A stretch of DNA of 59,712 nucleotides, from assembly GCA_021781555.1 (NCBI GenBank), contig JAJXWQ010000003.1, forward strand, positions 1-59,712, written 5' to 3'. Shown here piece after piece: positions 7,542 to 8,781 of the stretch; the stretch's first letter is position 1, and every line of letters starts with the position of its first letter. The notes beneath the pieces are model-generated. The model saw nothing but the letters and a program-made list of their open reading frames with translations, was not told the origin of the DNA and searched no databases. The stretch is from a bacterium (GTDB lineage: Bacteria; Cyanobacteriota; Sericytochromatia; S15B-MN24; VGJW01). The translations under genes were made by a program, and so were the position numbers.

Positions 7542-8339
7542 TCATTCAACCCACTCCTCGTGGGTCGCCCAGGCATTGTGGTTGTGGATCGACTCGAAGT
7601 TCTCGCACTCGATCGCAAACCATTCGATGCCAGGTAGCTGGCGCACGAAGAGGATGCAGTCCCGAAGCACATCCTCGACGAACCGTGGGTTGTCGTAAGC
7701 GCGCTCGGTGACCGCCTTCTCGTCTTCGCGCTTGAGCAGGGGATAGACCGGGCAGCTGGCCTGCTCCTCGAGTGCGGCCGCCAGGTCCTCGATCCAGATG
7801 CTCCCGGTACGGTAGCGAATCCGTGCCTTGATGAGGCTGCGCTGGTTATGGGCGCCGTACCGAGAGATCTCCTTGCTGCAGGGGCAAAGCGTCGTCACCG
7901 GAACCTGCACCCCCAAGGTAAAGACGAACGATCCGTCCGCGGCGACCTCCCCCGCGAAGGAGCAGTCGAGATCCGTCGGCGCGACCCGTCCGCTCACCGG
8001 AGCGCGCTTGTCCACGAAGTACTTGAACGCGATGGCCGCCTGCGCCGTACTGGCGTCCAATCTCTTGCAGGCATCCCGCAGGAGATCCTCGAGACCCGCT
8101 CCCGACAGATTGCGGCTGCGCCACTCGGTGAGCAACTCGACGAAGCGGCTCATGTGGGTGCCCTTGAAATGCTCGGGAAGCCCGACCGACAACGAGCAGG
8201 TCGCATGAACGATCTGGTGCCCGCCCGCCTTGTTCGCGACCCGCAGCGGGATGGCGATATCCCGGATTCCCACGCGCTGCAGCGCCACCCCGCGCGCGTC
8301 GGGATGACTCTGGATATCCTCGAGGACGACCTTCGACAT
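7542..8339 (-). CDS. folE2: GTP cyclohydrolase FolE2 (type IB)
   Basis: Enzyme of 265 aa forming 7,8-dihydroneopterin triphosphate from GTP, first step of folate (and queuosine) synthesis. Family features are VGIRDIAIPLRV near the N terminus, HATCSLSVGLPEHFKGTHMSRF and the catalytic Cys in TLCPCSKEIS. FolE2 enzymes can use metals other than zinc and often back up zinc-dependent FolE under zinc limitation; no Zur-like site is visible. It starts 10 nt after the selenocysteine peroxiredoxin and forms an operon with it. Confidence 0.93.
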   Translation of the reverse strand: MSKVVLEDIQSHPDARGVALQRVGIRDIAIPLRVANKAGGHQIVHATCSLSVGLPEHFKGTHMSRFVELLTEWRSRNLSGAGLEDLLRDACKRLDASTAQAAIAFKYFVDKRAPVSGRVAPTDLDCSFAGEVAADGSFVFTLGVQVPVTTLCPCSKEISRYGAHNQRSLIKARIRYRTGSIWIEDLAAALEEQASCPVYPLLKREDEKAVTERAYDNPRFVEDVLRDCILFVRQLPGIEWFAIECENFESIHNHNAWATHEEWVE

Positions 8340-8349
8340 CAGACCTCGC

Positions 8350-8781
8350 TCAGGCCTCGATCATGGTGGCCAGGATCTCGTCCGAGCTGGGCATTCCTTC
8401 CCTGGCAAACCGGATGATGCCATTTTCCACCCCGAAGACGGACCGTTGGATGCCCCCGCTGGCCTTGAGGGCCCCGTAGGCGCCGGCCACCTCCTTGCCC
8501 GCGTCGGACAGCAACACGAAGGGGAAGCCGAGCCTGTCGACGTACCGTGCGTGGGCAGCCGCGGACGCCGGATTGATCCCGACGACCGAGATGCCCGCCT
8601 GCTGGTAACGGTGGAAGTTGTCACGCAACTCCGAAAGCTGCCGGTTTCAGCCAGGGGTGTTGTCAGCGGGATAGAAGACGAGCACGGCCAAGCGGCCGAG
8701 AGCGTCGCTGGCAACGACGCTGCCGTCGCTCGCGGGAAGTCGAAATGCCGGGGCCGCGGCCCCGGACTGGAGAATTGCCAT
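8350..8781 (-). CDS. Peroxiredoxin (Bcp/PrxQ-like) with in-frame TGA read as selenocysteine
   Basis: Thioredoxin-fold peroxidase of 143 residues reducing hydroperoxides. The frame runs from ATG 8781 (MAILQSG) through a TGA at 8649-8647 to a TGA stop at 8352-8350. The internal TGA falls exactly at the peroxidatic cysteine of the PxxxTxxC motif: YPADNTPG-[TGA]-NRQLSELRDNF, where Bcp proteins have TPGC followed by LRD-like residues. Downstream sequence stays in family (VVGINPASAAAHARY, FPFVLLSDAGKEVAGAYGA, RSVFGVENGIIRF). There is no frameshift, and a SECIS-like hairpin follows. No Cys occupies the usual resolving position five residues on. Cotranscribed with folE2. The alternative is a pseudogene or sequencing error, unlikely given intact flanks. 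Confidence 0.85.
8614..8646 (-). promoter_or_regulatory. Candidate bacterial SECIS element
   Basis: Immediately after the in-frame TGA. The upper stem has 7 pairs (minus-strand 8632-8626 with 8620-8614, GGAGUUG with CAACUUC, one G-U). The 5-nt loop CGUGA begins 22 nt after UGA and has G at its second position. A short lower helix is possible between CCGG near the UGA and CCG beyond the stem. These values match published bacterial SECIS rules (loop 16-37 nt from UGA, G among the first two loop bases). Confidence 0.7.

Follow-up and report, generated by a model that had tools for sequence, protein, structure and literature searches.

The locus

The 59,712-nucleotide stretch of DNA analysed here (the window) carries on its minus strand a peroxiredoxin frame (prx) interrupted by a single TGA, followed by a folE2-like gene (Table 1). 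Translated through this TGA, the frame yields one protein that matches the Pfam AhpC-TSA model (PF00578) over residues 7-125 (5.1e-28) and, by sequence, the solved Bcp, PrxQ and AhpE chains in the PDB. The TGA falls exactly on the peroxidatic cysteine of the PxxxTxxC motif (P38-ADN-T42-PG-U45); P38, T42 and position 45, as cysteine or selenocysteine, are invariant in the homologue alignment, and R113 aligns with an arginine in every aligned homologue except the fragment L020. A sequence-only reading of this DNA had described a lone TGA at the catalytic cysteine with both flanks in family, and its coordinates were right, with the AhpC-TSA match extending across both flanks. It had further proposed a one-Sec peroxidase without the usual resolving cysteine at +5. 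Here the case is stronger than was claimed, since not only is +5 a serine but the read-through translation contains no cysteine in any of its 143 residues. The interval almost certainly encodes one peroxiredoxin with selenocysteine as its reactive residue. An ordinary gene caller would split such a gene at the UGA, and an antioxidant enzyme would thereby be lost from the annotation.

Table 1. Features of the locus and the selD gene of the same genome.
Feature	Position	Strand	Basis or remarks
Sec-containing Bcp/PrxQ-type peroxiredoxin (candidate), 143 aa through UGA	8350..8781	-	ATG at 8781, stop TGA 8352-8350
In-frame TGA, predicted selenocysteine codon, residue 45, peroxidatic position	8647..8649	-	translation, homologue alignment
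SECIS-like hairpin GGAGUUG-CGUGA-CAACUUC	8614..8632	-	7 bp, one G-U pair, loop CGUGA 8625-8621
FolE2-like GTP cyclohydrolase	7542..8339	-	named from reading its sequence; start 10 nt downstream of prx
selD (L065)	G000:C81:85655-86578		in-frame TGA near N-terminus (EAAGUAAK), strong hairpins after the TGA

The prx and folE2-like genes probably form one operon and are co-transcribed, given their close spacing and the retention of the same order in another species of the genus (G001; L017, 90.5% identity) and in another genus of the family (G002; L071, 71.9%).

Conservation of the TGA

The same TGA is present in G001, from the one further species sampled in the genus (82% protein identity), in G002 (57%) and in an acidobacterial MAG (about 45%), at loci L030, L031 and L019, respectively, and the retention of frame and TGA in three further genomes exceeds chance. 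Alignment of close homologues, which had been proposed alongside the sequence-only reading, returned cysteine at the equivalent site in L018 and L020-L022. Against G001, dN/dS is 0.37 before the TGA and 0.19 after it; against G002 the corresponding values are 0.43 and 0.25. As judged from these sequence comparisons, both halves of the gene are under purifying selection, with dN/dS below 0.45 on either side of the TGA.

Because the assembly behind the window is fragmented (3.8 Mb, 98.7% complete, 181 contigs), there is some room for the idea that the TGA is a sequencing or assembly error for a cysteine codon, or that the gene is dead. Separately assembled relatives share the TGA down to about 45% protein identity, which makes a sequencing error very unlikely, and the conserved TGA together with selection on both sides of it, including the part beyond the TGA, tells equally against a pseudogene. 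We rejected both possibilities and consider this the least probable of all the explanations weighed here.

Selenocysteine machinery and the meaning of TGA

On contig C64 of the genome (G000), selA (558 bits) precedes selB (338 bits); the genome also has a tRNA-Sec (69.7 bits, anticodon UCA, tca in the gene) and selD (393 bits). SelD is itself probably a selenoprotein, since its frame contains one TGA near the N-terminus. The selB gene runs off the end of its contig, and because the contig ends inside selB there is no match to PF09107, the C-terminal winged helix (wing) of SelB, anywhere in the assembly; this domain is present in six relatives with selA. The sequence-only reading held that the organism makes selenocysteine, a view that absence of selB and selC from the genome would have undermined. 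Instead selA, selC and selD are all present, as is selB up to the contig end, which supports that view at the level of the genes, and insertion of selenocysteine is what this gene set would predict. There is a further, weaker hit to the selB model (G000:C73:3410-4333; 189.5 bits, below the cut-off, 418-aa frame), which could just be EF-Tu or a similar translation GTPase.

TGA is the stop codon of 8 of the 12 large window ORFs examined, and the earlier argument that TGA is a normal stop elsewhere, which speaks against a recoded genome, holds. We therefore rejected genome-wide recoding. That the UGA is read as, say, Trp by a near-cognate tRNA, or is reassigned through such recoding, with selenium playing no part, is highly improbable, given that most of the examined ORFs stop at TGA, that the homologues have the catalytic cysteine at the TGA position and that the genome carries the Sec machinery. 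A scan of the window for frames that continue across a TGA with coding-like composition picked up nothing but adjacent genes sharing a frame and apparently antisense frames; the scan was not a sensitive one, since it also missed the prx gene itself.

We are thus left with a reading in which we place great confidence, namely that SelB and tRNA-Sec, with the help of a stem-loop just downstream, insert selenocysteine at UGA codon 45 of a Bcp/PrxQ-type peroxiredoxin.

The SECIS-like hairpin

From the TGA it is 15 nt to the stem of the candidate SECIS and 22 nt to its loop, the second nucleotide of which is G and the third U. The bacterial SECIS model specifies a loop of 3-9 nt, a stem of 4-16 bp, a G in loop positions 1-2, a distance of 16-37 nt from the UGA to the loop and a minimum free energy of at most -7.5 kcal/mol (PMC13188914). 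The hairpin agrees with this model in loop (5 nt), stem (7 bp), position of the G (second) and spacing (+22); its energy is a modest -5.5 kcal/mol for the bare stem in our genome, -7.9 in G002 and -16 when a longer stretch is folded, in which case the energy is shared with other stems. An equally stable fold arises in 6.4% of synonymous recodings, so that the hairpin is unexceptional when taken alone, and across the whole window 29.5% of TGAs have an equally stable hairpin after them. For the 63-nt fold, z is 0.61. Since single-sequence stability is not significant, we did not use folding as proof of a SECIS. Of the hairpin as first described, the 7 bp, the CGUGA loop and the distance of 22 nt all stand; what does not stand is its weight as evidence in isolation.

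The comparison between genera is more informative. The 19-nt hairpin is identical in G001 and G002, and an eighth pair is added in G002. Between our genome and G002, codons for the same residue are identical in 9 of 10 cases within codons 46-57, a range picked with the hairpin already known, and in 30 of 70 cases in the remainder of the gene (p = 0.006); dS is 0.33 in codons 46-57 vs 1.40 in codons 58-143. The same synonymous test is marginal for G001 vs G002 (p = 0.06) and not significant for our genome vs G001 (p = 0.24). It is this suppression of synonymous change between genera, seen in the coding sequence, and not the stability of the fold, that supports the hairpin.

It could be argued that the UGA does encode selenocysteine but that some other local structure acts as the SECIS, the conservation reflecting protein or codon constraints. 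Besides the unexceptional stability, the minimum-energy fold changes with the length of RNA supplied, and the paralogous Sec-peroxiredoxin genes of other genera, in which this hairpin was not found, have different structures. Against this stand the identity of 19 nt across two genera with nearly frozen silent sites, and the fit of the loop position, the G and U, and the loop and stem lengths to the bacterial model (PMC13188914). We consider a different SECIS unlikely, although to be taken seriously, and favour the hairpin in Table 1 as the element that would assist decoding.

Predicted structure and mechanism

AlphaFold predicts one confident peroxiredoxin domain (pLDDT 93.4, pTM 0.89). The nearest structures are Bcp and PrxQ proteins, from Xanthomonas and Sulfolobus, and AhpE of Mycobacterium tuberculosis, a 1-Cys peroxiredoxin according to its PDB description; these share the fold, with TM up to 0.93 (AhpE), and have cysteine where our protein has selenocysteine. 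The mechanism is likely to be of the one-Cys peroxiredoxin type, with selenium in place of sulphur. The conserved Thr42 and Arg113 would activate the Sec selenolate, which would attack the peroxide and become a selenenic acid. As the protein holds no cysteine to resolve this intermediate, an external reductant would be needed, and reduction would fall to an external thiol or redoxin. A Cys-free selenoperoxiredoxin of this kind would be a clean test case for the recycling of a lone selenenic acid.

Relation to known selenoperoxiredoxins

Sec-containing peroxiredoxins with a TxxU motif in COG1225 (Bcp) are a listed selenoprotein family (PMC1088965, PMC1794560, PMC9312934, PMC13188914), and the Sargasso Sea set held 43 such genes (PMC1088965, PMC9312934, PMC13188914). 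Our protein is like them in fold family, in the PxxxTxxU motif and in the lone selenocysteine at the peroxidatic position, and it has no cysteine at all, a feature that other members of the family may share. The acidobacterial homologue (L019:5001-5405, from an offshore MAG at 80 m) has a cysteine at +5 (UTKQLC) and so is a Sec/Cys version of the enzyme. PrxU of Eubacterium acidaminophilum, as cited in PMC13188914 (Sohling 2001), also has selenocysteine at the peroxidatic place; our protein scores 38.3 bits against the 270-bit cut-off of the NCBIfam PrxU equivalog (NF040737), and PrxU therefore belongs to a different, longer subfamily. A search of plasmids returned only distant Bcp genes. Bcp-type (COG1225) selenoperoxiredoxins are already catalogued, to which our gene adds a member, and the enzyme is for that reason less novel than the sequence-only reading implied.

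The selenocysteine trait within the phylum

Of the 59 genomes compared, 20 have PsaA/PsaB; all 20 are of the same phylum and none lies in the class of our genome, and among 14 controls only Synechococcus elongatus has them. From this distribution the class appears to be a non-photosynthetic class of Cyanobacteriota, perhaps Sericytochromatia. Of 292 genomes sampled from the phylum, 7 have selA above the cut-off; every one of them belongs to this class, and within the class a tRNA-Sec of at least 67 bits is found in these same seven genomes. Among the peroxiredoxin matches listed for the 59 relatives, 6 of 7 selA genomes, vs 0 of 52 without selA, have a TGA-bearing peroxiredoxin (Fisher p = 1.6e-7, the genomes being related and hence not independent).

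Further peroxiredoxin/TlpA-like genes with a TGA at or near the catalytic cysteine position were seen at L059-L063 in G002, G003, G007 and G010; L062 and L063, both counted in the comparison above, are the more distant Prx/TlpA-like proteins. The class thus appears to hold several Sec-peroxiredoxin paralogues.

A survey from 2015 lists Cyanobacteria as lacking Sec decoding (PMC5322559). The closest earlier hint that we found is a 2022 paper in which a single protein of a melainabacterial record is annotated with Sec (PMC9529120); our search of open papers returned none joining Sericytochromatia and selenocysteine. It is probable that a non-photosynthetic class of Cyanobacteriota has working Sec decoding and several selenoperoxiredoxins, including a Cys-free one-Sec Bcp/PrxQ sub-lineage in a conserved folE2 operon. 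If this is true, Sec decoding can no longer be denied to the cyanobacterial phylum, and the trait would belong to a phylum recorded as being without it in a broad survey (PMC5322559). The host, rather than the kind of enzyme, is the less expected and more noteworthy part of the finding.

Across the 292 sampled genomes, SelB is likewise limited, with selA and tRNA-Sec, to this class (G000-G017), and the three are absent from many of its members. This pattern suggests patchy retention or transfer of the Sec machinery within the class.
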